A DNA stretch of 64,000 nucleotides from assembly GCA_003290165.1 (NCBI GenBank), contig QNQO01000454.1, positions 62,001-126,000 of the forward strand, in the 5' to 3' direction. Below, in pieces: positions 1 to 57,313 of this stretch. Position 1 is the stretch's first letter. Every line of letters begins with the position of its first letter. Source of the DNA: Berberis thunbergii. Its lineage: Eukaryota > Streptophyta > Magnoliopsida > Ranunculales > Berberidaceae. A program made the translations under genes and the position numbers. The notes beneath the pieces were generated by a model, which was given only the letters and a program-made list of their open reading frames with translations, did not search any database and was not told where the DNA came from.

Positions 1-364
1 TTGAAGTTTTGTGTCAATTAATCATGTTGATCTTGAGTAGATGTTCAAAGCTTTGTGGGTATTTGATGTTTTGATTCAATCATGTTGATCACTATTGGAT
101 GCTTTTCTGTACTGGTGGGGGACAAAGTTATGGACTTTTCAATTAGATTGATTTCTTGAAATTTCAAAGTATGTTAAAGTCTTGTAGAATACTAGAACCT
201 CATTTTTAATCTTATGGTTTTGTGCATTTGAGTCCATGATAACATGGTCTTTTTGTATGGTGGCATCACCTGTAGACTAGTTGTTTACTTCATTTCTTCA
301 TTGTCCATTTTGCTTGTGGGTTGGATGTGGGTTTCGTTATCATGGAGGGGTATGAAGGATAAGG

Positions 365-626
365 GTAGAGCTCCCTGATGCTTATCCGTACAAATCTCCA
401 TCAATTGGATTTGTTAATAAGATCTACCACCCAAATGTTGATGAGATGTAAGCCTATTGAATCTTAAAACGCCGTGTTTCGGTTTTGAGTTAATTTCAAG
501 TGGTTGTGATTTGTCTATCTACGTAAGGAGAAATGTTATAACTGAAAATGTTTCATTGGGTTTCAAATTTCAGGTCAGGCTCTGTTTGTTTGGATGTTAT
601 CAATCAAACCTGGAGCCCCATGTTTG
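365..626 (+). pseudogene. Ubiquitin-conjugating enzyme E2 fragment (UBC4/5/6-like)
   Basis: Two exon pieces are visible. The first (about 365-447) reads [16 protein letters not shown] then [10 protein letters not shown], and breaks at a GTAAG donor in phase 2. The second (574-626), after a TTTCAG acceptor, reads SGSVCLDVINQTWSPMF and ends at a GGTAA donor. The HPN motif and the segment with the E2 catalytic cysteine (SVCLDV) are both present, matching the plant UBC4/5/6 subgroup of class I E2 enzymes, which pass ubiquitin from E1 to substrate or E3. Only about 45 residues of the roughly 190 usual for this subgroup are here. No start, N-terminal helix or C-terminal half was found, so this is a fragment and not a working gene. 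Reading frame and splice sites are still intact, suggesting recent capture or duplication. Confidence 0.8.
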
Positions 627-1199
627 GTAAATAACAAACTAGATCATTGTCTTCTCTGAATAAGATTGTTATATTTTCGTTAAAGAATTAAATATGTTTT
701 TTTACACGGGCTGTAGTTCATTGGTCATGTTCAGTTCCTGACAATGGATTTTATATGTTTCAGATCTAGTAAACTGATGTTTTAGGATTGGTGTTTTACA
801 ATGCTTAACATTTGTCTTAAATACTGATGATGCAAACATGCTTGAAGTGTTGGTATAGAGTAATGGGTTGGGCATACTATAATAGTGTATCAAGGTTTAT
901 ACTATAAACATGTTTTAAAGTTATTATGAAAGAATCATTCACTTTTATGCACTGCATTTGGTGGTGTTTAAATTACTTTCATTTAGGCGATTTGTTTCAG
1001 ACAGAAATTCCTTGAAAACAGGGTAAAAAGAGAAGCGCGAGTTAGAGGGAAAAAAAACACTTGTAAAGATGCCCATTTTATTTTGTTTTAGTGGTGAAAT
1101 ATATTCCTTGTCCCGCCCATTCACATAATAGAATATTATTTTGAGATAAAAAGTTTGGTTGAATGTCATTGTCAACCTCAATTTCGCCTGTAGGTCTTG

Positions 1200-1585
1200 T
1201 CTTCTCGTGGAAAGTGGCGATTAAAATGCAATATGATTTGTCAAGTTTCTAGTGGACTCGGAGGTATCTGGTGTTCTCTTACCCTAGTAGTATGAGGAAG
1301 ACACCTCAATTCCTTACATCGCTTGCCTTGTGTGAGATGAAGTGTGGGTTGGTAAACACAATGATGGTTTCACGAATTGATTTTATGGTTATGGGACTGA
1401 TGTTTGTGCTCTTGGCGGGTTGGTAAACACAATGATGGTTTCACGAATTGATTTTATGGTTATGAGACTGATGTTTGTGCTCTTGGCAGTGTCGTCTACG
1501 TGGGAAGATTGATTCCAATGGCGTTGTAGCAGCTTTTCTAGAAGAGCGGCTGAATATGGGTCTCAATTTTATTCTATCTGCTGAG
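1200..1585 (+). pseudogene. TOM40 mitochondrial outer-membrane import channel fragment
   Basis: The segment 1489-1585 reads [20 protein letters not shown] followed by GLNFILSAE and a GTAATT donor. This closely matches the C-terminal strands of plant TOM40, the beta-barrel pore of the mitochondrial protein import complex. A degraded upstream piece (1200-1285) reads NMICQVSSGLGG, resembling the KMVASGQVASTG region of the same protein. Between them, a stretch reading roughly VSRIDFMV is compatible with the next TOM40 strand but lies inside a 71-bp tandem duplication. The last exon and most of the roughly 310-residue protein are missing. I infer a captured or duplicated two-to-three-exon piece that cannot make a barrel. 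The first segment is the less certain part. Confidence 0.7.
1346..1487 (+). repeat. 71-bp perfect-register tandem duplication
   Basis: Two head-to-tail copies (1346-1416 and 1417-1487) begin GGGTTGGTAAACACAATG and end GTGCTCTTGGC. I see one difference between them (atgGgact versus atgAgact). The unit includes degraded TOM40-like coding sequence, and the second copy joins the better-preserved TOM40 exon at 1488. Confidence 0.9.
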
Positions 1586-2109
1586 GTAATTCTTGTCTTT
1601 TCTTGCTTCTGGTTTATGTGGTTCCTAAGGGTATCATTAATTCCAAAACAATTTTTTTTTCTTATGAGAGAAGTACTTGTATCCTTTATTTTTGTTTTGT
1701 GAAATGCGGCGTGGGTGCCCAAAAACATGACCTGTTTAAAGCTACTTCTTTACAATGATGCAGGTCTCATGGCAAAACTATTTTTGAAATTTAGTTACCT
1801 ATATCTGTGATTAATCAGTTTAAAGCTTTTAGTTTTACAGTGACTTGTTTGGTCACAGATTGATCATCAAATGTGTATTCTTAGCACAAACAAATGTGTC
1901 TTACATAACTGGAGGTCGTGGTTTGTAAAAGTGGTATACAAGAGACACAAGTATAGTCAATGGATTTTAATATGTATCAACATTTGGTTATTAATTGTAG
2001 TCTACTTATGTCCTTGGAGGTTCAGTATTGTCTACATGTTTCTGTTTTTCCTTTTCCTTTGTCTTCCTAACTTTTCAAATATTATACGGTCTTAATGCCT
2101 TCTATGTGA

Positions 2110-2710
2110 TCCAGTTTGGTATAGAAACTATACCATACCATAGAGATTACAAGGTGTCGCTACAAAGAGAAAAACTTCTTTTCAGGAAGGTATTTTCATG
2201 ATGCATTTGTGTATTCCTTTTATTTATTTATTTTTTTAACAAACATTGTGATTCCAATTCCCATTTATTGTTATCCGTGTCTGAAATTCATGTAGAAATC
2301 ATTAAATGCTATGAGTGAGGCGGAGGTGTTGAAACCAGCTGTTCAAAGAAAGATTGAAGAGTTTAACAGAATAAGTACAAGCCAAGTAAATGGGTGGAGT
2401 CCCATCAAACTAATTACAGTGATTCTTCTCTGGATTGGCCTCCTGTCAAAAAGTTCCCTCCTACCAGCCGAGAAATTCATATAGTTGTATCTTTTTAATA
2501 TATATTCAATAACCAACATTTCTCCTTGATCTTGATTCGTGTTATTCTTGATTACTCCTCGCATGACTTGTCGAATTTTCTGCTATCCTCTGATAGATAC
2601 CTGGATATGTTGGAAGAGGAGGAACATACGAGGTTCCACGTATTCAACATGATGAATATTCACTTTCTAAGCCAAACCCAGTGGAGCAGCAGTTGCGCAA
2701 ATTGTAAGGT
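2110..2710 (+). other. Unassigned exon-like segments of one or more captured genes
   Basis: Three stretches look like coding exons flanked by plausible splice sites but match no family I can name. The first (2113-2190) reads TIPYHRDYKVSLQREKLLF and ends at AAG|GTATTT. The second (2296-2475) reads SLNAMSEAEVLKPAVQRKIE and, after a frame change, continues as a Pro/Lys-rich segment. The third (2607-2706) reads IPGYVGRGGTYEVPRI then PVEQQLRKL and ends before GTAAGG. They could come from a single gene. All lie on the plus strand, like the identified fragments on either side. The flanking DNA at 627-1195, 1590-2100 and 2710-3000 is AT-rich and intron-like, with nothing recognisable. Confidence 0.3.
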
Positions 2711-3253
2711 TCTATGCTTCTATTTTGTATTGATTTCTATAAACGTGATTAGTTCAATGATAGAATTTTGTTTTAATTCTCTGGATTCTCCATCCAGCTC
2801 TCTTACATAAACTCTCATAACAGAGTAGTTGACCTTTGAACGTGGTTTGTATATTTTCTGCTATATGCTTTCTTAGGGTCAAAATGAAAAACATTGTGAT
2901 TTGAAGATACTCCAAGTAGAAGGGGTATTGTGATTTGATTGCTATAAATAAGAGTTAGCAAAAGAAATAAGGGAATTCATTCTGTAAGAAAATCATTGTA
3001 CAGTGAGCTTTGCTCCTAGGAGATTGACAATCAGAATTAGCAGAAGTCTGGCTTTTGGGATTCCTTTACATCAAGGTACTAATTTCATTTCACATTGTTA
3101 CAATTGGTGCTTCTTTCTTGTTGATATTGTAGATATTGCAAGAATCTTTAATGTAACTAAATTTTAATGCAAACTTATCTGCTCTGTCCAGCAATGATTT
3201 GTTATCATCTCATCACCTGTTATTCCTTAACTAATTTTCATACCATTGTATAG

Positions 3254-5120
<1,867 letters not shown>

Positions 5121-7610
5121 CCGCCTCTTAATGACAAGTGCTGCTAATCATTCATTACATGGCCTAACATCAGTATTGTACATGGCACATCAAACATGAT
5201 GCTATAGAAATATCTAGGTTGTGTATTTTTACATTGTCTATCAGTAGATAACTAGCTTTTGGATGCAGAAGCTGTGTTTTTAAGCTTCATATTGTAAATT
5301 ATTCTTCTTTTATATGTTTTCCATTATTTATAAATGTTTCTGCAGATAATTGAAACCACGATAAGATCAAATTTCAAAGCATAATTTGAAAACCTTACTT
5401 AAAAGAAAGAGAAAAATAAAGAAATTGGAAAAGAAGTTACTCGTTCCTCATCTTAGGAAGGCCATATATTGGTTTGGGAGTGGCTTTTGATGCTCACTTT
5501 TTGGAACTCAGAAAATTATGTTGTCGCATAAGTGGCCTGGCATAAAATATTTAATGATTAGCGAAGGATAAGGAAACCAAATCAGATAAGATGGATTATG
5601 GATGATACTAGAAATGAGTGATTTTTAGGAATAACTGTAATTCTTGAATGGTTGAGATGTTTAGTTGGGGTACCTGCATGTATTGATTCCCCGGGCATGT
5701 ATATCTTTCAACACGGTAGCTAACAAGTTCAATAATAGTTTCATATGTATATAAACCTTGCCATTTCTCTCTTTTGTTCTTACCCACATTCATATCCCAA
5801 ATCCTAATAAAGTAAATACCTGTTAGTATGTTGTAGTGTTGTATCAAATTTATTACAAGAAACTATGTTGTATGAGCTAGCCTGGTGATGGTTTGGATCA
5901 TTGAGGTCAGAACTATCAAGCTTCTCAATCTTAATTTTAACTTCGTGTATGCTAGACTGAGCCTAGGTTTATCATGAAACTATTACGTATCATTGTTGCA
6001 TTGTTAGAAGGACAGAGAAGGATCTTGCAGGGTGAGGTGACTGGAGAGGTAAGAAGTTACAACTGGATTATGTTTTTCTGATTTTAATGTATATTGGGAG
6101 GTGAAAGTAGCAGCATTAGATCTTGTTAATGTTTTTAGGTACGGAAAGCAAATTGTCTAGTAGAGTGTCTGAGCACATGCTGCATAAGCTGAAGGACACG
6201 ATCCAACTGGGGGGGGGGCACTTCAAATTCTTTTACGTAGTCCTAAATTTCTACTGAACCTTTTACCTGTTTCTTATTTCTCTCCCTTTTTTTGGCTGGG
6301 GTATGGTGAAAATAATAGGATGCACTCAGTGTCATGTTTCAAGTATAAAAGAATTTTGTTGAGTTGGCTTCCAATTTATTATTCCCTGTTAAGTCTTCTG
6401 CTTGACCACTTTGTTATTCTCCAAAGTTCAAACAGCTAATGTAAGTGAATGTTATTCTTTCTTGTGAAGTTGAGCCGCTATTTTGAGGAGTGGGAGGAAA
6501 AAAAATATAGATATAAGGTAGTTTACTGGGGACTGTGCACTCAGCCAGTATGGGAAGACTGCAAACCCAATCTGCAAGTGATCAATCTTTCTATTACCCC
6601 CTGAAATTTATAGGGCATGTTTGTCTGTCATTGAGTACTGACTAATTTTTATATTGCAGGACTTTGAAGGTCTGAGCCAATACAGAGTATATTTGTTAAA
6701 GGTTTTGATACCTCCCTTGGCCATGATGAGGTAAAAATCCATACAGAGTTGACTCATGAAACTCTTTTCTTGATTTTGAATCATTTACAGCTGATATTTT
6801 ATATAAATAATAGTTAATAAAAGCTTAAAGAATAGTGATATGTTTATTGCAAACAAAGTCAAAGTGGCCTCTTTTCCTGAGCTCATGAACTTCAGCATTG
6901 GAGGTGTACACGTACTTAAAAATACGGCTTTATGGGAAGATATGTTTTGTCTATGCATTGATTAGTCCTTTCAGACATTGTCTTGTTACAATCATTTTCT
7001 CATAGACTTGTCTGCAGAGTTAATCTCTTAAAGACTTAAACTAGTTGGTACTTTCTGTTGTGAATAGGCTTGTATCTGTTTTTTATTTTTTTCTGTACCT
7101 TTCCATGTTCTGAGCATGCTATCCAAGAGTACAGTTTCCTCAGTTTGGCAGATTAAAGGCATTTATCTAGCAGCTCAGTGAAGCAGTTTGGAATATTACA
7201 TTGTATATAATGATTTATGCATCCCATGTTGTCTTGTGCATTTAGGTATTTAATGTTGGTAAGCTATAAGTGGAGATATAATAGTACAGACTTCACTTAC
7301 TGTATTTTCTGTTACAACATGACGTCTTTCTTGTATGCATTCACGAGGTTAGGTGAGATTCCTTGGACCTATTGTGCAATTATTCAATGTAGTGAAAAAT
7401 CATGGAAGAGACAAATATATCTTCTCTTAGGAAACTTCCATGTCTAGCAGTGTCAAATTGAAGTCTTGAACGGTGATGCTAATATTGCTTGCCTTCTTAT
7501 TTCTTCTTTATGTTCGTCATAATCATCATTGGAGTAAATGATGCTAAATTGGGGGAGGTTTCCGTACTTATTCCCGATAATACTGCTAGTGCATTTAAGA
7601 ATTTCTATAG
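5121..7610 (+). other. Intron-like spacer with unassigned exon-like scraps
   Basis: AT-rich sequence with no recognised gene. Weak exon-like stretches occur at about 6469-6580 (reads SRYFEEWEEKKYRYKVVYWG, then LCTQPVWEDCKPNLQ) and at about 6661-6730. The first has a moderately complex composition and an upstream pyrimidine tract, and could be an exon from another captured gene. A G9 run lies near 6211-6220. Nothing else stands out. Confidence 0.3.
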
Positions 7611-7617
7611 TTTACAG

Positions 7618-7711
7618 GGGTTGGAAGGTTGTATCTGTACACGGAGACAAATCTCAAACTGATCGCACAAAGTCACTTTCATTGTTCAAAGATGGAACAT
7701 GCCCTTTAATG
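7618..7711 (+). pseudogene. DEAD-box RNA helicase exon fragment (RH5-like)
   Basis: A single exon follows a TTTACAG acceptor and reads GWKVVSVHGDKSQTDRTKSL, then SLFKDGTCPLM, ending at ATG|GTAATC. This is the C-terminal RecA-like lobe between motifs IV and V of plant DEAD-box helicases of the RH5 type (VVSVHGDKSQ..RTK.L..F). The next segment of the real protein (VATDVAARGLDIP) is absent. These proteins unwind RNA, often in ribosome biogenesis. Here only about 30 of several hundred residues remain, so it is a captured exon and not a gene. Reading frame and both splice sites are intact. Confidence 0.75.
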
Positions 7712-8212
7712 GTAATCAGTCACTTCAAAACTTTAGACATATTACTGTTTTAAGAACAATGACAGCAGCTGTAATGCATCCATGTGGGTTACCTTCTTTC
7801 ACCCCTAATGTTTCCATGTAATTGAATGATGTTGTCAAGACCAAAGTATGGTGTTAGATGCTTTGACTTGAATCTTGTTTCCCTTGAGTATAAGTGAAGT
7901 CCTTGTGTTCTCTAGCATAGTTAAACAAACTATTTCCTAGTAGCAGCTATTCATAGTTACATGTTTTTTATTCTTAATGCTTACTAGATGTCACATGTTT
8001 GTGGCTCTGTTGCCTGTTCATTTGCAATTCGAGTAACTAATTTTGTTTCGTCATGGCTTGATTCTTGTAGGATTGGATGCTGAGGAGTCATGTGAGGCAA
8101 GAGATGTGGAGAAACAAAAGGCAGTTGCAGCTGTTAACATCTTTTCCTTGTTTACACACTATAGTGAGCTAACAGGCAGATTGGTGTGTGGGAAGAGATG
8201 TGGCTCAGTTGG

Positions 8213-8387
8213 GATGGGTACTCTTGGTTCATCCAACCTCTGGACTTGACGCTAGAACAGCAGCAATTGTGATGAGAACAATGAGAAACACAGTGGACAC
8301 AGGACGAACTATAGTGTGCACCATTCACCAATCTAGCATTGACAAATTTGAAGCTTTCAATGAGCTATGCAAACTTCAAGAGTAGAG
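8213..8387 (+). pseudogene. PDR-type ABCG transporter fragment
   Basis: The frame reads [20 protein letters not shown], then [20 protein letters not shown]. This is the nucleotide-binding domain from just after Walker B through the D-loop (SGLDAR) and the H-loop histidine (TIHQ) of full-size ABCG (pleiotropic drug resistance) transporters, which use ATP to export hydrophobic compounds across the plasma membrane. The Walker B acidic residues are lost (LLVHP in place of a FMDEP-like motif), and the usual proline after HQ is serine. The frame stops at 8385-8387, and no transmembrane domain follows. The frame upstream of about 8210 does not resemble the family. It sits only 230 bp from the CACTA subterminal repeats. 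Confidence 0.8.
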
Positions 8388-8612
8388 AACCAATGATGTT
8401 GTTCCACTTTCTTTGTATTTGAGATATTATTTGATAGATTTTGTGACTCAATGTAATACATTATCTTATTAATTACATTACTTTGCCTCCATTCATGGAA
8501 ATGTTTAAGTTTGGCACATTAAAAATTTTATTTTCTAGAAATAAAACTTATAAGATGTAATAAAAAGTCATTTGATAGCAAAAAAAAAAACATTATTAAA
8601 AAAAAAAAATTT

Positions 8613-8949
8613 GCCACGGCTTAACACTGTGGCTAATTATTGCAATGGCTAAAAACCGTGGCTAGTACTGGCCACGGCTTAAAACCGTTGCTAAAACTAT
8701 TGCAACGGCTTAGAACCGTGGCCATAACTTGCAACGTTTTTAAGCCGTGGCTAAGATTGTGGCAACGATTTATAACCGTGGCTAAATCATCAACCGTCCT
8801 CGAGATAAAACCGTTGCTAATATTTTAGCCACGGTTTTTAGCTGTTACTGGGGATTTAGTGACGCCTCTACAGCCCACGGCTCTAAGCCGTGACAATGGG
8901 TTACCCCCACGGTTTAAAACCGTTGCTAACGGGTATTTTTGGTGTAGTG
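8613..8949 (-). repeat. CACTA subterminal repeat block and terminal inverted repeat
   Basis: About ten degenerate copies of a 20-24 bp palindromic motif, consensus near GCCACGGCTTAAAACCGT followed by TGCTAA, occur in both orientations at roughly 34-bp spacing. The block ends in ACGGGTATTTTTGGTGTAGTG, whose reverse complement starts CACTACACCAAAAATACC. This is the classic layout of an En/Spm-type end, where clustered subterminal motifs bind the element's TNPA-like protein. A poly(A)-rich tract precedes the block. Confidence 0.8.
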
Positions 8950-8951
8950 TA

Positions 8952-9480
8952 AACACACATGTCTCTTGAAGAGATGAAAACTGCCAGGAGAAAAAATGAA
9001 TAGGAAAGGGAAATGCATTCAAGGAAACGGGAAAGGAGGGAAGAGAGAAGGCGAGACGGCAGACCACGGGAAGATAACGGTCAATCAAAGAAACATCAAA
9101 ATGGTGGAAGGACCGAGTCCAACCAGCGGGAATCCAATAAGTCACAATCGGCACGACCCAATCACTAGTGGATAACCAGCGTAATGAAAAAGGAATACAA
9201 GCCATACACGACACTAAATACAAGTAGGATCAACATCCTGAAGTACATGGCGAATTGGGATAACGTCAAGTGACCACCCAGGATGAGAGGAGACCTAGAA
9301 GGAATAGACAAAAGCAGGTACTGTTCCTTCCACAAGGATCACGGGCATGATACCTAAGACTGCTTGAAGCTGAAAGAAGAAATTGAGCATTGAATCCAAA
9401 GAGGACGACTGGACGAATTCATTGGAATGCTAGACAAACAGTTAAAAGTGAAAGAAAAGGCAGATACCACCAGCACATGA
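8952..9480 (+). pseudogene. Gag remnant of element A
   Basis: The sequence from 8952 aligns with B's gag (minus strand from about 56277). At 9311-9340 the frame reads YCSFHKDHGHDT, then a stop where B has Glu, then DCLKLKEEIEH, another stop, and GRLDEFIGMLDKQLK. The C..H...GHDT.DC..L...IE pattern is the compact zinc-binding signature at the end of Tat-lineage gag. Several stops and indels make it non-coding. The protein would package element RNA in the cytoplasm. The spacer 9481-10019 holds no recognisable protease or polymerase domain. Confidence 0.7.
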
Positions 9481-10019
9481 TTGAAATAACAATCTAGGGA
9501 ACTGATATACGCTCTATACTACATCTACCCCAACAAAGAAACACCTTCCACTCGAGCAGACCTATATCGAAGCAGGAAGATTAATGTCTTGAAGACATTT
9601 GCACTGATCGACTCAAGGACTCTATCAACGGATGCAAATTCAATCTGAATTATCAACAAAAGAATTAACAATGACGATCCATCAAGCTTCAGCAAGTGAC
9701 GCCAAGCGAGGACCAGTAGCGGGTCAAGTGAAAGAGGTCATAATTAAACGAAAAAGAGCAACAAAGGCACGAACCCCCAACACGAGGATAGACATCAACC
9801 AAGCCATGATCAAAAGGAAAAAAACAAATCATTCCCCAATGTAGCGTAACTGCTCCAGAAAAATGATCGTTAGGGATGGTCGAGACATCCAAAAAGGAAA
9901 ATCAATTAAATTACAAATTCAGTATCATCATCCCACGAAGGATAAAAGCTTCGAAATGAAGCCATGCAAAACAATCAACATATAAAGCCAAAAGGAATCA
10001 GGATGCAAGTCGGATACAT

Positions 10020-10960
10020 ATAATAAACTTCTGGTCTGATCAACCAACGAAGTAAAGGTTGAACGAATGAGTCAACCAAGTAAAAACGACTTCGGGTAGA
10101 CTAGAACGTCGAACCACCGAAGCAAAGGTTGGACAAACGAGTCAACCAAGTAAAAGCAATTTCGGGTCGACTAGAACCTCGAACCAACGAAGTAAAAGTT
10201 GGTTGAACGAGTCAACTAAGTAAAAATGACTTCGGGTCGACTAGAACATTGAACCAACAAAGTAAAAGTTGAACGAAAGAGTCAACTAAGTAAAATGACT
10301 TTGGATCGACTAGAACGTTGAACCAACAAAATAAAAGTTGGATGAACGAGTCAACTAAGTAAAAGCAACTTCGTATCGAGTAGAACGTTGAACCAACGAA
10401 GTAAAAGTTGGACAAATGAGTACGTCAACTAAGTAAAAGCGGCTTCGGGTCGATTAGAATGTCGAACCAACAAAGTAAAGGTTAAACAAATGAGTCAACC
10501 AAGTAAAAACAACTTCGAGTCGACTATAACGTCGAACCAACGAAGTAAAAGTTGGAGCAACGAGTCAACTAAATAAAAATGACTTCGGGTCGATTAAAAA
10601 GTTGAACCAACAAAGTAAAGGTTGGACAAATGAGTCAACCAAGTAAAAACGACTTCGGGTCGACTAGAATGTCGAACCAACGAAGTAAAGGTTGAACCAA
10701 AGAGTTGTAAAAGCAACTTCGGGCCGACTAGAATGTCGAACCAATGAAGTGAAAGTTGGAAGACCGAGTCAACTAAATAAAAGCAACTACGGGATGAATG
10801 AAACATCAAACCAACGAAGCAAAACTTGAATAAAGCGATTTCGGGTCAACCGGACCGTCGAGCCAACGAAGTAAGAACTGAGCGAATAAACCAACTCGAA
10901 AGAAGCAAATTTCGTGTTGATCAAAATATCAAATCAGTAAAACAAACGATGAAGGAACAA
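10020..10960 (+). repeat. 70-bp tandem array in element A
   Basis: About 12-13 head-to-tail units. The word GTCAAC recurs at 10071, 10141, 10211, 10281, 10350, 10424, 10494, 10564 and 10634, a spacing of 69-74 and mostly exactly 70. Each unit carries CGACTTCGGGTCGACTAGAA and AACCAACGAAGTAAAAGTTGG. Units toward 10700-10960 are shortened and diverged. The reverse complement of the same unit forms the array at 54405-54895 in element B. Known: 3'-region arrays of Tat/Ogre elements can seed satellite DNA. Confidence 0.9.
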
Positions 10961-11259
10961 GCAAACAAAACAGGTTTCTCACAGAAGCTCCGAGACAAAC
11001 AACATGAGGTTGAGACAGACATATTAGAGTGTAGGAGAATTCAAATAAGCAAAAGTCAGACAGAACAAAAATATAGCTGTAAAAATCAAAGCTGGAGTAC
11101 AAATCATTTTGACAATAGTGACCGACCTATAAAAGGTACATGCAACATGAACGAAGTCAACAAGATGAACCACGAGTACGAAGAAAAGTAAAGGAGAAAA
11201 TTCTTGTTCTTTCATGAACAACTATACTATTACATTCAATGAAGAAAGTAAAGGAGCAA

Positions 11260-13680
11260 GAGGTCAAGCAGAGGGATCCCTAGCATCCAGCACCATCTGA
11301 TGGACAAGGGGCAGTCGGATCACTGGCAGGAGGTTTCTCTTCAAGAAGAGAAGGCGGTGGCTCTTTAGCCGTTGGATCACCCGGAGGGTTTTCAGCACCG
11401 TCTTCATCCTCGAAGGTTTGATAGACAAAATGACGGTATTGAGACAAGTTAACAATATAATCTAGAAGCTCAGTCCGTCCATCAATAGCTCACTGCCAAT
11501 CCACACTTCCATAATGCGAAGCCTATCCTTAACAGAAGCAAGCTCATTCCTAACTGCTATAAGTCAACCCTCAGCAATAGTAAGCATCACAGAGGTATCG
11601 GCCTTGACTTCATCAAGTGAAGTCGTTGATTGCTACACCCTTTGCTCGGCAATGTCGCGATTGTTAGAGTGCTCTATCACGACACTCACAACCTCATCAT
11701 GGAGAGCCTTCTCAGCGAACAACTCTTTTTCCACATCATGCAAGCGTGCATAAACATCGTCTAATTCAGCTCTTAAAGATTCGAGCTTGTCACAAACCGA
11801 TATCGTGCACCCTTTTCTTCGACCACTCTTAAAGAATCGAGCTCGGTCACAAATCGATACCGTGCACCCTCCGCTTCGACCAACGAGGCTTGAGCAACCC
11901 GACCGCTTTGGTCCGCTTCGACCATCGCGTTCTTAACGCGTCAAATTGATAAAGAACATGGGAAAACCCTAATAGCAGCACAACAAGCTTCGTCTCCAGA
12001 GAACCCACAAGATCACGACTAGCTTGATAACCTGAACCCATCACCCCTGCGTAGGAAAGATGACTCATCCCGTCCATTATAAGCCTAAGGTCATCATCAA
12101 GATGAAGGATCGAATCCAGCACAGTCATTGAAAGCCTCTCCACCGACCATCTGTGCCATTATTTAATCAACTTACGCACACCATCTTGCACGTCAAGCCG
12201 AGAAAACCATCAAAACTTCCCGTCCAATTTGACCTGAATCTCTTCAGGGTAGGCTTCCTCCAATTAATCCGTGAATGAAAAACGCGAAGATCTGGAAGCA
12301 CGGAGGAACCACCACCCATAGGCGTGAAGGAAAAATGAACAACCAGAGCCATCCTCACCCTTTTGTTGTCCAGTAACCATAACAAAAATGGGATGAGTGG
12401 CAGTCCCAATTAGAATAGATGAGCCTAAGCGGGCCGAAGAAGTTGGGACCTCTGCCTCATCATCAACAAAAGGAGAAAGAAAACGAAGAGACTGCGTCTC
12501 AGGAACTCGATCACGACTACTAAGCTCCTTAGACTGAAGAACAACTAGTTGGAACATCTTATCATCAATGGCCCTAAGATCCTCATCAGAACACTTGGCA
12601 GCCTCTGGACCACCATAAGTAGAGAAGAACCTCTTTTCGCGATCGTCCAGAAGACGAATGGTCACTGTTTTGCTCCTTTCCAATGCCAACTTCATCTCCT
12701 CCGCCTCTTACAGAGAGAAACGATCCTCCCTCGCAAGCTCCCTATCAACAAAACTAGAGTAAAGAGAAGCACGGTGGATATAATCAATGAGCCGCTTATT
12801 CTTTGGAACACCATCGAAACTCTGGAACAATCGCTTTGATGGACTAACATGCCTCAAAACTTTTCTCTTCATGGAAGTTGGACCAGTAGTGCCAACGCTA
12901 ACAGGAACATCGAGATTCGTAACATTCGAGTTCACTTTCCCATCAATGATAGCATTACCACCATCGACTAGAGCAACGCGGGCAGCAATCTCCACAACTT
13001 GCCTCTCAGTTAGCAGAGTCCGCTTAGCTTCATTCATACTATACAAACCACTGTGCTTCACCATGTCATCGGTAAGATAGGTGTCCAAAGGAACTACAGG
13101 AAGCTGCAAAAAATGCTCACTGATAATTTATTTTTCAGTAGTCAATTGCAGATTCTTCTTCTTATTGGGAACCCAGAAAAACCTCACTATCTGCCCACCC
13201 TGCAAATTGAAGTGGCCAGAATGGACAGAAGCGTAAAACCAACCCCTGATGTCATCATTAAGGTTGCCAAAACATGTGGGAGAATGAAGAAAACAAGTAC
13301 TCTTGGATGCCAACAAAATGACCACCGAGTGCAAGATCCCAGCAGTCAAAGGAATACCAAAAAGAACGACCCTTGCATATGTGGAAACCATAACCCTCCA
13401 ACCGTTCGGACCCATCTAAGTAGGAGGAATGCCCCGAAGATCTAAATAAGACCAGAATACTCTGGAATCAAAAATCGAAAACTGACATGAAACATACGAG
13501 GGTAAAGTGCAATATATCCCTTCCTCGGATGATAAAGACTGTCGTTCTCATGAGGTAGAATGATCTCAAGGTCGGAAAGCAAATAGTAGTTTGAATGGAC
13601 GCTATCCAAGGTTGCCTGAGAAGCCTTCTTGGGAAAAAATGAGCTTCGCAGGTAGCAAGTTGTTCACCGTTAAGTAAGTC
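11260..13680 (-). pseudogene. Antisense additional ORF of element A ('putative gypsy-type transposase' family)
   Basis: On the minus strand, broken frames give GPNGWRVMVSTYARVV, SPTCFGNLNDDIRGWFYASV, QIVRFFWVPNK, then EHFLQLPVVPLDTYLTDDMV, a central acidic/basic region and a C-terminal stretch. They are collinear with B's ORF at 51610-53970. The P-N-G-W-R core and FxxxF..FWVPNK pattern fit the plant domain annotated as 'putative gypsy-type transposon'. Its function is unknown, and the name does not imply a shown transposase. Known: Tat elements may carry extra ORFs, sense or antisense, between pol and the 3' LTR. At least five frameshifts or stops are present. A leftover ATG near 13993 may mark the original start region. 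Confidence 0.7.
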
Positions 13681-14011
13681 ACCAGCAGATATCGCGAATA
13701 AGCAACAAAGGATGAAAGAAGGCGATAGAAAATATCAAAGATGGCATAAAGAAGGAAATAAAATAGTCACGATCTCCTTTTATACAACCGAGCAATGAAG
13801 AGACTGCTTGTGGGGGACGTACGGGATATAATGGCGCACAAAATTCCAAAAAAAATATGTGCGAAAATGAACGGATAAAGAAGTGATCGAGACAATCGAT
13901 CGATTGAAAGTTGTTAACAACATTAAATTCAATGCAAAGATGCAATTGGGATACTAACCGCCACAAAGTTAGTGGATACATAAACACACTCACTAACTAA
14001 GGGGGAGTAGC

Positions 14012-14559
14012 TGATGATACATCAAAATAGACCGATCATCACGGCCATACACGTGGCAGAAAACATCCATCGCGAGGATACAACGTCCCATCTAATGGGC
14101 CAGCTCGTAAAACTCAAGAATAATAAAGCCAACCACAGAAGCCCAGACAAGGCCCACTATAAGAAGATATAATCAAAGCCCGAATCCAAGCCCGAATGAA
14201 TCAAAACTCAAATCCAGGCTCGACACGAGTTTTTTCATAAAGAATAGGAACATTGCACCAAAAAGAGTGGTGGAGGAAGTTATGCCTCCACGGACACATC
14301 TCCATCAAGGAGGAGACTTCGTTGCACCTCACATGCTTAAGTCACGCAAAAAATTAATAATGACCATTAAAAAGGTAAAGGGAACATTCGACACAGGTAT
14401 GCAACTTTAACTGAGTTTTGTCCAGATTTACTTCATTCTTCAAACAGAGTTGCTGACTTAAGCATCAGAGTGCCTTCGACCACCAAAAAGGTGGTCTTTG
14501 GCAGTCTAACATTTGTTTTGCAGATCAAACTCGTAGGAGGACGATTTTTGAACGCATCG
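14012..14559 (+). repeat. 3' LTR of element A with preceding polypurine tract
   Basis: The LTR starts TGATGATACATCAAAATAG right after AAGGGGGAGTAGC (13999-14011) and ends near GAACGCATCG. It matches the reverse complement of 50751-51280, including AGTGCCTTCGACCACCAAAA and the TTTTGCAG(A/G)TCAAACT block. At 548 bp it is close in length to B's 530 bp. The expected terminal CA is degraded to CG, so the right edge is good to a few bases. Confidence 0.8.
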
Positions 14560-14996
14560 GTTACTGTTTTTTCCAAAAACAATTTTTTGGATGGTGTGGG
14601 TTAGTAGGTTAAAAAAAAGTTGAATGACGGTATGGGACAATACTTTTGGTGGTGTTAAAAAGGGCTTGCCCATATATTTATGTAACTATAGAACTTGTCT
14701 TCGTTTTATAATGAAGGAAAAATAAACATAAATTCAGAATCTAGTGAGCATGTACGAGGTCGTTAATCTTCAATCTTCTGACTTTTTGGATGAATTAGAA
14801 TGAAGCTTCATACATTTGAATGCAAGAAGGCTTAAAAATTAGTAGTGGCTCTCATCGAAAGAGAGGGTGGTTATAACAGTGCCCACAAAAACAACGCTTG
14901 GATAGCTAAAGCTATATAAGTTAAACTACAAAGCCCTAGTGAAACCCTAGTGAGCGAGAGAAAGAGGAGCTTGAGAGAGCTTAAACAACAACAACA
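14560..14996 (+). promoter_or_regulatory. Promoter region of the small basic-protein gene (TATA box, telo-box)
   Basis: A TATA-like TATATAAG lies at 14913-14920, about 75 bp before the ATG. An AAACCCTAG telo-box-like motif follows at 14942-14950, inside the presumed 5' leader. Telo-boxes are common in plant ribosome-biogenesis and translation genes, fitting the Lys/Arg-rich product. The upstream 14560-14900 is ordinary AT-rich sequence next to the LTR edge. Confidence 0.45.
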
Positions 14997-17833
14997 ATGG
15001 TGAAATCGTAGAGATCAAAGAGAGAGAAGAGACTCAGAACAATTAGGAGAGAAATCTCAAAACCCTTTTACGACAAGAAGGAGCTCGCTAAAATAACCGC
15101 TCAAGAAGCTGCCCTCGCCGTTCCCAAGCTGCCGCCACGCCTCCCTCCCACAACCAACACCACCAATGACAACAACGCTTCCATGGATATAACTACCACT
15201 GCAACCCCCACTTCAAATTTCACAATGGGTACTCATGCAATCCATTTCATTCATGTTTTTTTTGGAGTTTTAATTACATTTTCATCCCCAATTTGATCGC
15301 TCTAGTGTTCACTGAACAATTGCCTATACATACACATAAGATTAGGTAGGTGCCTTTAGTTGATCTTTTTGCTTTGTTAGTTTACCCATTTTAGTTAATC
15401 CCATATTTATGTTCAGGGTTCATATTTTTACGAATTTTGCTTGACACAGGGAATGTAGAGTAGAGATACAAAACTCAGATTATAGGTAGGACTAGGACTA
15501 GTGAGGCTAGAGTAATAGTCTCCCTGTTCCAAAAGGGCATCTTTGGCTCTTTCAGGATATAACATTAACCAGGGAGCAATTGATTGATTGGAAGATGGTA
15601 AGGTGTGAAACCAAACTAGAGTTTTGATTCTGATTTGAGTTTTGGATTAGGAAGAGAAGAGATGCATCTTCATATTCTTTTCACATTGGGGTTTTGTATT
15701 GTCAAGAGGAGGTCCCTAGCCTTTATCAATATCTGGTGTTGATTCATTATTCAATGTCATCCCCATGATTCACAAACCCTATGTGTAAATGGCATTGTTA
15801 AAAAATAGGGTAGTTTTTTTTGTAGATGACGAGAGAGGTTTGATAAAGGGAGAGGAGGCAATAGTTTGGACCTTGGAGGTGGAGGAAGTGTAGTGGTGTG
15901 ATGGGTTTACTATGGTGGCGAGAGGGTTGAAGCATATATGGTTTTATTTATAGAGATTGAAAGCCCCATTCATACAACCTCTAAGCATCACGTAGCTCCA
16001 ATAAAATTATGAACCTCTTACCTTGGTATGAGCCTCACTGCCACATTCCTTCCCTTTGGTTAATTACTGCTTCCAGATATGTTTTCTAATTTTCAAATAT
16101 TGAAATGGGTACTATTTTGTGATATTGTACTCTGCAAGGAGCCTATGAAATCAATCATTCGGAAACAATTTCATCTTTTCTTTTCAATTTTTTTTTTTTT
16201 TTTTTGCATTTTTCCTTCTTTTAGTTTAGCCTATGCTCTTTGATGCTATTTCCCTTCCCTCTAATGAGTGATGTAGACTATTGTTCTAAGTGATCTCTCC
16301 ACATTTGGGGTTTTATATGGATACTTGGTAAACATAGGGTAATATATACATCACTTATAATGTAGGGATGGCAACAGGGCGGATTTGAGCAAATTCATCC
16401 CCGATCCGTTAGGAATAACGGATCCCCCAATCCGTTTACAATTTTTATTATAAACTGTAACCGCCCCGGACGAATTGGCGGATATCTGCCCTGATCCACC
16501 AATCCGTTTACAGTTATCCATCTAACTACAGAGATTATAACAAAAATTGCAAAGATACAATAATTGCAAAGAAATTACAAAGAATCCATACATATACAAA
16601 AATTATAACAAAAAAAAAAAAATCTATCTCAGATATTAGATCTGAAATATACAGAAATTATAACAAAAAAAAATTTGATATCACATCTGAAATATACAAA
16701 ATTATAACAAAAAAAAAGTGATCTCTGATCTCAGAAAATCGATCTTGATCTCAAAAAAATCGATCTTGATCTCAGAACTTGATCTTGATCTCGATCTCAG
16801 AACTTGATCTTGATCTCAAAAAATCGATCTTGATCTCAGAAGTCCGAACTTTGATCTCAGATCTGAGATCTTTGATATCAGATCTAAGGTTTCTTCGAGT
16901 GTTGTTGTGAGAGAGAAGGAGGGAGGGTATCCGCCTTCGCTGTGAGAGAGAAGAAGGGGGGACAAGAAGCGAGGTATCCGCCTTCGCTGTGAGAAAAAAG
17001 ATTGTGAGAGAGAAGAAGGGGCGACAAGAAGTGAGGGTCTCCGCCTTTGCTGTGAGAGATGAGAAGGGAGACAAGAAGCGAGGGTCTCCGCCTTCTCTGT
17101 GAGAGATGAGAAGGGGCGAGGAGAAGCGAGGGTCGGCCTCCGCCTTCGCTGTGAGAGAAGAAGGGAGGGGGATGACTTCGCTGTGAGGAGAAACAAGACT
17201 GAGGGCTCTGTCTCTGCGTGTGCGTGTGCGTGTGAGAGGGTGTGAGATGGTTTAATCCTTTATATAGGGGAAGGGTATTTTTGTAAATTTATCGGATAAA
17301 CGGATATCCGTGGGCGGATATAGCCAATTCTGTATCCACCCCGATTAATAAACGGATACAGATTGAAAATCTGTATCCGCCTCAAGATCCAGGGACCCTT
17401 TACCAAATCCGCCCAAAACGGAGCGAGTGGGGCGGATATCCGTGAAAATCCGCCCCATTGCCATCCCTATCATAATGTAGTAAGCCAAAAAAGGGTTGAA
17501 ATATATTGTGGTTGCTGGACTGAACATACCAAGTTTTAATGGGTGGCAGAATAGATCGTGACACAAGAGTTTGAGATAAAAAAAAATAATAGAATTGCAT
17601 GTTTTATGTTAAATATAAAGTTGAACAAATTTTAAAGTTGACAGAATCATCAGTTTTTTTTCGTTGAACACTTGGATGCTTGTCTAACAATTACAGTTTC
17701 GACAGATGTTGACATGGTTGGTGGAACCTCAAAGTCACTAAAACCTGTTGGAAAAAAGTTAAAAATGAAACTGAAGATAGGTAAGGGTAAGTGCCATGGA
17801 AATGGGAAGGTCAGAAAGAAGCACAACATTTGA
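14997..17833 (+). pseudogene. Small Lys/Arg-rich, probably nucleolar protein gene with a stop at codon 5 (LLP/DUF2423-like)
   Basis: Exon 1 is 14997-15228 (ends ATG G|GTACTC) and exon 2 is 17706-17833 (after TTTCGACAG). Together they make 360 nt, an exact multiple of three, and join to read TMDVDMVGG. The product begins MVKS, then a TAG at 15009-15011, then RSKREKRLRTIRREISKPFY and DKKELAKITAQEAALA. It ends SLKPVGKKLKMKLKIGKG and KVRKKHNI. This matches a family of about 120-residue plant proteins starting MAKSKRSKREKRLR, with a very basic tail. Their role is poorly known, and a nucleolar location is inferred from composition. The TAG replaces an expected Lys (AAG). Apart from it the frame, splice sites, TATA box and 3' UTR look intact, so this is a young pseudogene, an allele, or a sequence error. 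The intron carries a transposon. Confidence 0.65.
16363..17469. mobile_element. Non-autonomous hAT-like element in the intron (1107 bp)
   Basis: Left end TAGGGATGGCAACAGGGCGG, right end CCGCCCCATTGCCATCCCTA, giving a terminal inverted repeat of about 20 bp. The flanks are TTATAATG (16355-16362) and TCATAATG (17470-17477), an 8-bp target duplication with one mismatch, as expected for hAT elements. Inside are runs of GATCTTGATCTCAGA-type repeats (about 16715-16890) and a roughly 60-bp array built on CTTCGCTGTGAGAGAGAAG (16905-17170). No transposase is present. ORFs at 16772-17196 are by-products of the low-complexity array. Confidence 0.8.
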
Positions 17834-38439: not shown

Positions 38440-39401
38440 AGCAATATTACAGAACAGTAAAAATAATTATACACTACATATCATTTATACATACATCGAA
38501 TTAAAAAAATACAACAAATTACAAAAAAAAAAATTTCTAAAGATCAGATCTATCTGATTTTCTGATATAAAAAAATTTACAAAAAATTCAAAAAAAAATT
38601 ACAACATATTACAAAAAATTCGATCTCTGATATATTACAAAAAAAAAAAAAAAAAAAAAAAAAAAACGATCTGATATCTGAGATCTGAGATCAAATATAT
38701 CAGATCTGATCTAAACAGAGATCTGATTTTAGATCAAATTTGATCTGATCAAAGATCTCGATCAAAGATCTGGATCTGATCTAAGATCTGAGATCGAGAT
38801 CTAGATCTAGGATCTAAGATCTAAGATCAGATCTTATTGCTAAGATCAGAGAAGGAGAAGGCGCGACGATGATGCCTTCGCTGTGAGAGAGAAGAGGCGG
38901 CCGAGCTCGAGCTTCGCCTTTGCTGTGAGAGAAATCAGAGAAGAAGAGGCGGACGAGCTTCGTCTTCGCTGTGAGAGTCGAGAGAGAAGAAGAGGCGGAC
39001 GACGACCCTTCCCTTCGGCCTCCGCCTTAGCTTCATCGTTGTGTTCTCTGTGTGTGAGAGGCAGAGAGGGAGAGGCCTTCGACCCTTCGCTCAAATCATT
39101 CCTCGGCCCCTCCCCCTGTGAGTGTGAGAGGCAGAGCCGCAAAGAGGGAGAGGCGGGTGTGAGGGAGGGAATGAGGGAGAGGGATTAAGGGTTTAATCCC
39201 TTTATATAGGGGAAGGGCATTGTTGTAATTTTACCTAATAAACGGATATCCGCGGGGCGGATATGGCCAAATCCGTATCCGCCCCGAATAGTGAACGAAT
39301 ATTTTTTTGATACCCGAAACCCATTCAGCCATATCCAAAACCGCCCCAAACGGATTGGGTGGGGCGGATATCTGTGAAAATCCGCCCCACTGCCATCCCT
39401 A
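38440..39401. mobile_element. Second hAT-like element copy, left end missing
   Basis: The right end GTGAAAATCCGCCCCACTGC then CATCCCTA matches the element at 16363-17469. The same internal order is present: AT-rich lead, GATCTGAGATC-type repeats, CTTCGCTGTGAGAGAGAAG repeats, a GGTTTAATCCCTTTATATAG block and ACGGATATCCG. No TAGGGATGGCAAC left end is seen, so the copy is truncated or rearranged where it meets the unit ending near 38402. A poly(A) run of 28 lies near 38639-38666. Between 39402 and 39770 is a remnant ending CGTCCCATGCCCACCCCTA, perhaps the end of another hAT-like family. Confidence 0.7.
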
Positions 39402-50750: not shown

Positions 50751-51280
50751 TGATGTGTCAAAATCTCATTTTTTTTCTATAAGTTTGACCTGCAAAACAG
50801 ATGTTAGGCTGCCAATGACCACCTTTTTGGTGGTCGAAGGCACTCTGATGCTTACGTCGACAACTCTATTTGAATAAGGAAGTAAATCTTGACAAAACTC
50901 AAGTAAAATTGCACACCTTTGTTGATTGTTCCCTTTACCTTATATAATGGTTGTTGTTAATTCTCTGCGTGATTTAAGCATGTGAGGCGCAACGGAATGA
51001 GACATTCTTTGTAGCAGTCTCCTTTTTATGAAAACGTGTTCGTGGAAGCGTAACTCCCTCGACTCTTTTTTATGCAACGCTTCTCTTCTTTATGAGAGAG
51101 CTGGATTTGGGCCTTGGCCATGATTTCTCCTGATGGGATATGTCTGAGATTTTATGATTGGTCTTGCCTTCTTTGGGCTTTATGAGCTGACCCAGTAGAT
51201 GGGATACTTGATCCTCATGATGGATGATGATTTATGCCACATGTATGACTGTGATGATAGTCTATTTTGATGTATCATCA
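50751..51280 (-). repeat. 3' LTR of element B
   Basis: On minus it starts TGATGATACATCAAAATAG at 51280, preceded by the purine tract ACTAAGGGAGAGTAGC, and ends ACACATCA at 50751. At 530 bp it is homologous to A's LTR (548 bp) and to fragment D. Confidence 0.85.
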
Positions 51281-51609
51281 GCTACTCTCCCTTAGTTAGT
51301 GGGTATGCTGACGTGGCCACTAACTTCGTAACGGTTGGACTTTTAATTCCATCATTGCCTTGTATTTAATGTTTGTCAGCGACTGTTGCTTTGTTGGTGC
51401 TTCGATCTCTTGCTTATATGTTCGTTTTCACGCACATTTTTTAGATTTCGTGTGCCATCATATCCCGCACGTTGTCCCATGAGCAATCTCTTCGTTGTTC
51501 AGCTCTATAAAGGAGGACGTGACGAGTTTTTCCCTCTTTACGCCATCTTTGAAATTATGGTTCTTTCTTTTTTCCCTCTTTGTTTTTATATTCTTTTCTT
51601 GTTCGTTCA

Positions 51610-53975
51610 CGATGCCTGTCATCAATTTATTCGACGGTGAGCAGCTTGCAGCCTGCGAGGCTTATTTCTCTACCAAGAAGGTTTCCCAGGTGACGTTGGA
51701 TATCATCCGCTCTGATTATTCTTTGCCTTTCGACCTTGAGATCATTTTGCCCCGACAGAGTGATAGTCCTTGTCGTCCGAGAAAAGGGGTGTATTGCACT
51801 CTACCCGTACATGTTTCACACCGGCCTTCGATTTCAAATTCCAGAGTTATTCTGGGCTTATTTAGGCTTTCTTGGCATTCGTCCTGCTCGGATAGGCCCT
51901 AATGGTTGGAGGGTTATGGTTTCCACTTATGCAAAAACCATCCTTTCTGGTATTCTTTTGACTATTAGGACTTTGTATTCGGGGGTTGGTCAATTGGTTA
52001 CCGAAAGTATTTGTTTTATTCGTTCGCCGACGTGTTTTGGTAATCTTAACGATGATATCAGGGGTTGGTCGTGAGACTGGTTTTATGCCTCTGTTCATTC
52101 AGGCTATTTCGACTTGCAAAGTCAACAAATAGTAAGGTACTTTTGGGTTCCTAATAAGTGGAGGGATCTATAATTGACAGCGAAAGAACAAATGATTAGC
52201 GAGCATTTTTTGCAGCTTCCCGAGGTTCCTTTGGAGACCTTTCTTTCTGATGTCATGGTAGAACGCAGTGGCTTGTACAACATGAACGAGGCTGAATGGG
52301 CTTTGCTGATAGACAGGCAAGCTGAGGAGATTGTTGCCCGTGCTACTTCTGTTAACATTAGTAATGTTGGCGTTGATGGGAAAGTGAGCTCGGATGTGAC
52401 GGATCTTGATGCTCTTGTTAGTGTTGGTGTTGTTGCCCAACTTCCAAAAAGAGAAAAATCCTGAGGCTAGCTAGTCCATCGAAGCGGTTGTTTATAAGTT
52501 ATGACCGTGTTCCGAAGAGGAAACAACTTCTTGGTTCTATTCGTAGTGTTGTTCCTTGTCTGAGTTCTGTTGATAGGGACCCTGCAAGAGAGGATCCCTT
52601 ATCTCTTGAGGAGGCTGAAGAGATAAGGTTGGCGTTGGAGAAGAGTGAAAAAGAGACTATTCACCCATTGGATGATAATGAAAAGAGGCTCCTTTTTTGC
52701 ATATGGTGGGCCTGGTGCTGCTGAATGTCCAAATGATGATCCTAGAGCTATTGATGATAAGATGTTCCAACTATAGTTGTGTAATCTAAGGAGATTGACA
52801 ATCGCAGTCGAGGTTTTGAGGTGCAGTCTAACCGTTATTCTTCTGTTCCTGTCGACGGTGCGGCAAAGTTTTTACCTTCTCCTGTTTGCTTGGGTTCTTC
52901 TGCCCCTGCTGGTACTACTACGTGTTATGCTTCTGCTGTGACTACTACACAGCGCAAGGGTGAGGATGGTATTTCCGTTGTTTAGTTTTCTCTTTCGGTC
53001 ATTCAAGGTGGCTCTTTTGTGCTTCCGGATCCTCGCGTCCTTCATTCGTGGATTAGTTGGAAAGAACCTATCCCTGAAGATATTTGCGTTAAGTCGGATG
53101 AGAAGTTTTACTGGTTGACCCAGCTCGACGTGTAGGATGGTGCACATATGTTGATCAATGAGGAGCATAGGTGGTCGGTGAATAGGCCTTCGATGCTTGT
53201 GTTGGATCCGGACCTTCATCTTGATGATGACCCTAAACAAATAATGGAAGGGATGAATCATCTCACTTATGCGAAAGTGATGGGCTCGGATTACCAAACT
53301 AGTCGTAATCAGATGGTTTATCTAGATAGGACGTTCATGGTGCTGTTGTTGGTGTTTTCTCACGTCATTTGTCAATCTGACGGATTGAAGTCGAGATGTG
53401 CAGAATAGAAGAAAGTAGTTGGGGTTGCTTGGGCCTCGTTGATTGAGGCGGAGGGTGCACAGGACCAGTTTACAACTGAGCTAGAGTCTTTGAGAACCGA
53501 TCTGGATGGGGTTTGTGCGCGCTTATACGATGTGGAGAGCAAATTGTCTACCGAGAAGGTGATTCATGAAGAGGTTGCACGTGTCGTGGTTGAACAGTCC
53601 ATCAATCGCGATGTTGCTAAGAGACGGGTGGAGCAATTAATGGTCGCGCTTGACGAGGTCAAGGTAGATACCTCCGCGATGCTTACCACAGTTGAGGAAA
53701 GACTTATTGCGGTTAGGAATGAACTTGCTTCTATCAAAGACATGTTTCGCATTGTAGAGGTAGCAGATTGGCATCAAGTCGTTGATGGACGGACTAAGCT
53801 TCTCGATTATATCGAGGGGATTAGTATTGATTTGTCTCAGTACCGTCACTTGGTCGACTAGGCCTTTGAAAATGAAGATGGTGGCGAAGACGTTCAGGGT
53901 TCTTCGGGTGATCCAGTAGTTGAAGAACCATTGTTTCCTCCCCATTTCGAAGAGGGAGCCCCTGCTAGTGATTAG
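51610..53975 (+). pseudogene. Antisense additional ORF of element B ('putative gypsy-type transposase' family)
   Basis: The reading begins MPVINLFDGEQLAACEAYFS at 51610. After a +1 shift near 51750 it gives YMFHTGLRFQIPELFWAYLG, IGPNGWRVMVSTYAKTILSG, SPTCFGNLNDDIRGW, QQIVRYFWVPNKWRDL and QLPEVPLETFLSDVMVERSG. Further shifts near 52465 and 52710 lead to an acidic middle. The C-terminal part (53439-53861) is a predicted coiled coil (TTELESLRTDLDGVCARLYD, ARVVVEQSINRDVAKRRVEQ) with an acidic tail. The original protein would be about 750 residues. At least four stops or shifts are present. It is collinear with A's ORF and, more distantly, with C's. Function unknown. It lies opposite to the element's own transcript. 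Confidence 0.75.
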
Positions 53976-54404
53976 GATGTTTCCCGTCCGTCAGATGATG
54001 TCACCAATGATGTTATGATTTCCTTCTCTTTATCTCCCACTCCTTTACCATCTTCTCCGAAAGTAATAGAATATATTTATTAAGGAAAATAACTTTTCTC
54101 CTTGGTATTCTTATTTTTCATCGTAGTCGTAATTTGTCTTGTTGACTAGTTGGATGTTGCCTATACCTTTTTAGGTCAGTTGTGGTTGTCAAAATAAGTT
54201 GTGTTGCATATCTCCAATTTGATTTTTTCAGCTGAGCAGGGGGCCTTTACGACTCCATTCTGATCATGTTTGAATTTCTTGAACTGAATTCCTTTATGGC
54301 TACTTTTATGTTTTGACAAATCGGTCGCTTCGAAGTGGGTCGACTTTATCCTTTCTTCTTGATGTGTTGGAGCTCATTTGGGAAATTTGACTTTTCCGTC
54401 TCGA

Positions 54405-54895
54405 TTTTTACTTCGTATTGATCGTCCTGAAGTTGTTTTTTGTTCGAATAAGTTGACTTGCACGTCTAGCTTTTACTTCGTTGGTTCAACGTACTAGTCG
54501 TCCTGAAGCTCTTTAAGTTAAGTTGACTCGTTCGTTCAATTTTTACTTCGTTGGTTCGACATGCTAATCAACCCGAAGTTCTTTTTATTTGATTGAGATG
54601 ATTTGCTTTGTCCAACTTTTACTTCTTTGGTTTGACGTACTAGTTGACCCGAAGTTCTTGAGTAAATTGGTTCATTGCCCAACTTTTATTTCGTTAACGT
54701 ATTTATTTGATTAAGTTGACTCGTTCGTCCAACTTTTACTTCGTTGGTTTGACGTACTAGTCAACCCGAAGTTCTTTTTATTTGAATAAGTTGACTCGTT
54801 TGTCCAACTTTTACTTTGTTGGTTTGACATACTAGTCGACCTGAAGCTCTTTACTTGATTAAGTTGACTCGTTCATCCAACTTTCACTTCGTGGA
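54405..54895 (-). repeat. 70-bp tandem array in element B
   Basis: About seven units with a period near 70-73, containing GTTGACTCGTTCGTCCAACT, TTTTACTTCGTTGG and GTACTAGTCGACCCGAAGTT. This is the reverse complement of the array in element A. It has fewer units than A, so copy number changes between element copies. Confidence 0.88.
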
Positions 54896-57169: not shown

Positions 57170-57313
57170 TGTCGTCGCCAGTGGGAGGGTTAATGCGATT
57201 GTCGCTGAATTAAAGGTCTGTAGAGTGTTCCATCTACTCTAATAGCTTCTTGATCATATATCAGATCTTAGTGATTTTTGTTATTGCAGATCTTCTTTTT
57301 AGAAAGGAAACTT

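Follow-up and report, generated by a model that had tools for sequence, protein, structure and literature searches.

A 9.8-kb CACTA element of Berberis thunbergii that carries fragments from at least five unrelated host genes, with related elements at other loci

CACTA transposons that have taken up host gene sequences are described from several plants. The passages of PMC1947982 that deal with Tgm-Express1 of soybean describe a CACTA element of 5.7 kb, situated in a flower-colour gene, whose ends enclose exons and introns of five unrelated host genes and from which alternatively spliced chimeric transcripts were shown to arise. Pack-CACTA elements, or Pack-TYPE elements more broadly, are presented in parts of PMC8903248 as non-autonomous units with terminal inverted repeats (TIRs) and target-site duplications (TSDs), which carry coding DNA from several loci, form multi-copy clusters and show evidence for fusion between neighbours; the PIF and Mariner examples given there average 311 to 535 bp. 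For wheat chromosome 3B, sections of PMC4290129 count 145 CACTA-captured genes, which go back to 140 events and of which some are transcribed and under purifying selection, with one captured gene repeated and an exchange of segments between families proposed. Host gene fragments also lie within CACTA elements of Chenopodium, where they adjoin the element coding domain (TAD), according to portions of PMC8978399. Here we describe an element of this kind in Berberis thunbergii, at the left edge of a stretch of 64,000 nucleotides that we refer to as the window (contig QNQO01000454.1, here C454, positions 62001-126000 of the forward strand; assembly GCA_003290165.1, 2.24 Gb in 11,732 contigs).

We are nearly certain that this element of 9,757 bp is a Pack-CACTA, a non-autonomous CACTA transposon whose cargo comes from five or more unrelated host genes and which would have spread in a burst and then decayed. 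Its ends, its TSD, its subterminal repeats and its cargo in a single orientation can be read directly, as can related elements at three other loci. It is a large, amplified member of an already known kind, to be compared with Tgm-Express1, from which it differs in length (9.8-12.5 kb for the Berberis elements), in its presence at about seven loci, in the identity of its genes and in being known from DNA sequence alone. The PIF and Mariner examples are far smaller than these elements, which are about 10-12 kb long and contain five or more gene fragments. In contrast to wheat 3B, a single element holds many fragments, and the one on which selection was measured, an acetyltransferase (GNAT) piece, gave no sign of it. 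Our literature search found no Pack-CACTA with such gene content, which is not proof of absence.

The whole element occupies C454:61193-70949 (window -807 to 8949), with 808 bp to the left of the window's first base, in the left flank that was fetched. The original prediction, made from the window's letters, had proposed a Pack-CACTA that arrived in one insertion of more than 8.9 kb and ended at a CACTA terminus at 8949, beyond which the gag of another element resumes, and it had called for an extension to the left. That extension recovered the left terminus together with another subterminal block, as well as a TAA matching 8950-8952 and the continuation of the interrupted retroelement; the left end, which might have lain near 8600, stands 9.76 kb from the right one. 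The 13-bp TIRs that begin with CACTA, CACTACACCAAAA, are identical at both ends, and the left terminus at C454:61193 is preceded, and the right terminus at 70949 followed, by TAA, in agreement with the 3-bp TSD of the CACTA superfamily. The right terminus (8931-8949) was matched with 0 mismatches, had no second match in the window and none in 100 shuffles. The first 160 bp contain a subterminal motif 4 times and the last 337 bp contain it 11 times, with no occurrence in the sequence between them; these 15 matches constitute the short subterminal repeats that also belong to the superfamily. Homology to a second retroelement copy within the window (minus strand, about 50777-57529; Retrotrans_gag 2.6e-7) restarts at 8951. 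When 60 bases from each flank were joined with one TAA, they aligned along this sister retroelement with a single one-base gap, and the insertion therefore hit the gag region of a retroelement. Both gag-bearing long terminal repeat (LTR) copies also contain 70-75-bp tandem repeats (window 10042-10828 and 54439-54892).

These boundaries bear on two other accounts of the block. In the first, the gene pieces arrived in a Helitron that has a short CACTA as its neighbour; according to passages of PMC4290129 and PMC13317346, Helitrons often bear several gene fragments, and Helitron ends around the pieces had been named beforehand as a sign of such an origin. However, 9,757 bp separate the CACTA ends, each of which is flanked by TAA, ends of the same type surround cargo at three other loci, the empty site is clean, and the unit that moved has CACTA ends and a 3-bp duplication in place of TC...CTRR ends (the interior was not scanned for Helitron ends), so that we consider this account very improbable. 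The second, a chance neighbourhood of host pseudogenes beside a CACTA end, can draw on the decayed state of the pieces and on nothing more; the arrangement is found in the same order at other loci and the flanks make up one interrupted retroelement, which leaves it scarcely credible.

As regards autonomy, 0 of the 18 open frames of at least 66 amino acids in 1-8949 matched a transposase (the scan did not extend to shorter frames or to the 808 bp that precede the window), and within those 18 frames the element thus has the absence of a transposase gene that characterizes a Pack-CACTA; in the Chenopodium elements, in contrast, the gene fragments adjoin a coding domain. Transposase_21 is abundant in the genome, since among the best 150 of 7,809 candidates 150 were over the cut-off, many of them uninterrupted. 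Transposase from other CACTA elements would bind the subterminal repeats and move the whole unit in trans.

Positions of the features are collected in Table 1. The cargo consists of pieces of a ubiquitin E2, TOM40, a GNAT, a DEAD-box helicase and a PDR-type ABCG transporter, all on the plus strand with their introns kept, and the identities and orientation assigned to these five unrelated host-gene fragments, the hallmark of a Pack-CACTA, hold. The E2 piece, of which exon 1 (ATG at window -347) and exon 2 sit left of the window, matched Pfam UQ_con (5.8e-17) and an E2 H chain (9.4e-22). With the next TOM40 exon added from the sibling copy at C237, TOM40 chains were matched at 1.1e-7 and Porin_3 at 2.7e-12; relative to C237, the window copy is without about 0.6 kb containing the TOM40 end. 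The single helicase exon is the weakest of the five identities (Helicase_C 3.9e-4, under the Pfam cut-off; DDX3X 6.2e-4), and the ABCG piece matched a pleiotropic ABC efflux transporter chain with no Pfam match at E<=1. Among 21 splice sites picked by eye from the E2, TOM40, GNAT and helicase pieces (the ABCG piece and the unassigned ones were left out), 19 are intact, as the description of mostly intact sites had implied; the broken ones are the E2 exon-3 acceptor and the GNAT exon-B donor. The original prediction had also left some exon-like pieces unassigned. Those at about 3254-3918 are GNAT exons, and those at 2296-2704 are still without a match in Pfam or in a protein search that compared proteins of similar length. 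A nucleolin-like RRM reading of 6668-6730 was dropped, as it gave no Pfam match and no credible PDB match. Six E2-like residues near 6112 (DLVNVF) are noted here without being claimed.

Table 1. Features of the CACTA element and its insertion target, in window coordinates
Feature	Position	Strand	Remarks
Element, very probably a Pack-CACTA, window part	1..8949	+	both termini, TAA/TAA flanks, cargo
E2 exon 3	331..447	+	premature TGA (siblings TGG); acceptor GG
E2 exon 4	574..626	+	both splice sites intact
71-bp tandem duplication directly before TOM40 exon	1346..1487	+	
TOM40 exon	1490..1585	+	Porin_3 3.2e-6, just under Pfam cut-off
Start of next TOM40 exon, truncated	1859..1871	+	C237 retains exon up to stop codon
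Exon-like pieces	2296..2704	+	open frames
GNAT (serotonin N-acetyltransferase 1 / NSI-like) fragment	3254..5120	+	two inherited in-frame stops
GNAT exons	3254-3440, 3819-3918, 4086-4177, 4609-4702, 5041-5120	+	last holds stop codon
3' part, most widely recurring	7079..8590	+	7079 is site of 2.07-kb shortfall
DEAD-box helicase C-terminal-domain exon	7618..7711	+	splice sites intact
PDR-type ABCG transporter fragment	8173..8382	+	3.3e-11
Right subterminal block, short inverted and direct repeats	8613..8936	+	AACCGTGGC / GCCACGGTT type
Right terminal inverted repeat, CACTACACCAAAA	8937..8949	-	13 bp, identical to left end
TAA target-site duplication	8950..8952	+	same TAA at C454:61190-61192
Interrupted gag-bearing LTR retroelement (insertion target)	8950..14562	+	homology to sister copy

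The same insertion is carried by C7956:27700-37501 (9,802 bp), the flanks of which match those of C454 over the 27.7 kb to the left and 7.0 kb to the right that were compared. There were 13 substitutions in 9,754 aligned element bases and 4 in 7,047 bases of the right flank; from the matching flanks and the small number of substitutions we read C454 and C7956 as two haplotypes. Elsewhere in the genome, where the original prediction had proposed to look for other copies, related elements with both ends were found at C237 (12,501 bp, flanks ATG/TTG, interior read whole), C67 (11,649 bp, flanks ATC/ATC) and C2022 (12,007 bp, flanks ACC/ACT), the interiors of the last two being read in part. Each has flanks of its own, as is expected of an element that transposed as a unit with its cargo, and, in answer to the possibility that copies of the CACTA might lack the fragments, these related copies carry the same pieces. 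At C10249 the right end was found, with no left end within the stretch fetched. Among six complete CACTA elements whose flanks were read, the TSD is perfect in C454, C67 and two further elements described below, C295 and C1437.

Searches with parts of the element showed that its segments recur to different extents. For window 1440-3960 (best 40 of 745), C454 and C7956 matched whole, 10 more places matched from query position 437 on (8 of these 10 also hold the first 432 bases separately), 2 from query position 1465, and 26 had a main match starting at query 1560-1705. For 3900-5990 (best 40 of 186 candidates), 8 places hold the entire query. For 5900-8600 (best 40 of 1,381), the entire query was present in C454, C7956 and C1896 only among the matches listed, and in the other 37 the match starts at query 1178-1342, in 33 of them within 14 bp; C67, C2022 and C10249 carry the 3' part yet are not among these 40. 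The sharp start at 7079 arises because copies differ in size by 2.07 kb, so it is not evidence of a separate module, and we rejected 7079 as a module boundary, as the upstream part lies 2 kb further on in C237, beyond what the listed match shows. The 2.07 kb, with a DHX15/PRP43 exon (1.6e-15), is present in C237 and absent from the window copy; it is also present in C2022 and, with an internal gap, in C10249, as far as these were read. A loss unique to the window copy was likewise rejected, because C1896 matches across the site without the segment, and the distribution is compatible with losses at two loci as well as with gains at three.

Over the GNAT part (element 3712-6250), the seven loci differ near-uniformly from each other, by 2.5-3.5% pairwise, and six presumed haplotype pairs differ by 0-0.75%. 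This star-like divergence suggests one burst, which, once the chimera had formed, would have spread the element to about seven loci or more. With a neutral rate of about 7e-9 per site and year, the burst would be roughly two million years old. The gene pieces would then have decayed neutrally; the window copy is shorter than its siblings.

The GNAT piece provided the most information on source and decay. It matched serotonin N-acetyltransferase 1, chloroplastic, at 6.4e-39, and a query assembled from pieces 2296 to 3940 returned, out of 109 candidates, 43 proteins; those with names are plant acetyltransferases that cover about half of the query. The best matches came from Thalictrum (78%) and Ranunculus (76%), which hints at a host near Ranunculales. 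C888:380143-381616 holds a GNAT gene of which three exons are free of stops, and a second copy is present at C9285. Across exons and adjoining intron edges (453 bases fetched), the C888 gene is 92-94% identical to the window copy and 92-95% identical to the four other element copies compared, and this intact gene is likely the source of the piece or a close relative of the source. If C888 is the source, its similarity would imply that the piece was captured from genomic DNA, with introns, before the burst. Two in-frame TGA codons, in a frame deduced from the reading of intact exons, are present in 13 of 13 aligned rows from the seven loci. Over all pairs of these loci, exons differ at 392 of 11,291 sites (0.0347) versus 692 of 24,816 (0.0279) in introns, a count in which exon B extended 22 bp too far; the variable columns, 62 of 573 in exons and 111 of 1,308 in introns, do not differ significantly (Fisher P 0.12). 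Codon positions 1, 2 and 3 vary at 19 of 117, 9 of 117 and 13 of 119 sites, respectively, in three of the five exons. Judged from these sequences, the captured gene pieces look dead and neutrally decayed, selection having been measured on GNAT alone.

These observations also address the view that the chimera has turned into a gene, with a fused protein or a regulatory RNA that is expressed and selected. The high proportion of intact splice sites is compatible with such a gene, as is the presence of the E2 start codon and first exons near the left end, and Tgm-Express1 does yield chimeric spliced transcripts, as related in PMC1947982. Yet the GNAT exons diverge at least as much as the introns, both stops are present in every row, the variation by codon position is as given above, the E2 piece has a stop and a broken acceptor, and TOM40 is frameshifted in other copies; the E2 and TOM40 pieces are broken differently from copy to copy. 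We therefore consider a selected gene very improbable. The suggestion in the original prediction that new proteins might arise is not supported, in view of the inherited stops and the neutral-looking divergence of the GNAT exons. If the element is transcribed, its mostly intact splice sites could give chimeric RNAs, with no selected protein indicated.

How the pieces came together is a separate question. They would have been gathered stepwise, probably through the fusion of Pack-CACTA elements, neighbouring or nested, whose inner ends were lost. At C6941 the same GNAT piece is joined to a cyclin-like exon (Cyclin_N at 0.001, below the cut-off) and to sequence resembling the 3' part of a different element, C295:656025-665648, which is a complete CACTA of 9,624 bp with related ends, the TSD GGT and a Utp12 piece (1.7e-9). 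Another complete CACTA with related ends, C1437:193145-198764, has a 502-bp block in common with the C295 element at 98% identity, their interiors being otherwise different. Only 2.9 kb to the left of the window element, in minus orientation, lies a second CACTA with related ends (C454:47577-58289), which carries an Xpo1/exportin-like piece (5.3e-8) and a weak AARP2CN-like piece (0.19), and which is degraded, to judge from a right-type end that reads CGCTA instead of CACTA. The arrangements at C6941, at C295 and beside the window element fit the fusion model, with loss of inner ends, set out in parts of PMC8903248; no fusion intermediate was seen among the elements read.

Independent capture of each piece, for example by template switching during gap repair, is the competing account of this step, and we hold it to be a serious possibility, if a doubtful one. 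Every piece is a short genomic segment, a mechanism other than fusion is credited to Rubin and Levy in portions of PMC8978399, and the boundary at 7079, being a copy difference, gives no proof of a separate module. On the other hand, 31 of the 40 listed places for the 3' part are on contigs absent from the matches listed for the TOM40-to-GNAT part, the GNAT piece is found again next to a cyclin-like exon and another 3' end, and a second CACTA with related ends is situated close by. Returning to fusion, we would tentatively extend it, with somewhat less than even confidence, to a genome-wide modular exon shuffling, in which one lineage of CACTA ends would go through repeated fusions with adjacent elements and exchanges of pieces, and each new chimera would be amplified in bursts; the blocks that circulate, in combinations that vary, would be GNAT, the helicase-ABCG 3' end, E2-TOM40, and the cyclin-like, exportin-like and Utp12-like pieces.

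Several points weigh against the overall picture of a Pack-CACTA that fused, spread and decayed. Both ends were read at four of the seven loci, one at C10249 and neither at C59 and C1896; the TSD has one mismatch in two of the six complete elements (C237 and C2022); and only C454 and C7956 are established as a haplotype pair by their flanks, the other pairs being presumed. No transposase has been matched to the ends of the window element, and the fusion of elements is something that we infer. Finally, of the parent genes that the original prediction had proposed to look for, the GNAT candidate at C888 was located and no other, no genome search having given an answer for E2 or been aimed at TOM40, the helicase or ABCG.

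What the locus offers is a fully delimited, large, multi-copy Pack-CACTA for which the same assembly also holds siblings, relatives that match in part and one or more likely source genes, and from which the order of capture, rearrangement and amplification should be reconstructible. In such a genome, automatic gene prediction could miscall many E2, GNAT, helicase and ABCG genes.

Two other features of the window were noted outside the element. At 61713-62768, a unit of about 179 bp is repeated in tandem. Two blocks rich in GATCT-type repeats, at 16719-17469 and 38668-39401, have a 220-bp stretch in common (78%) and possibly represent another non-autonomous element.

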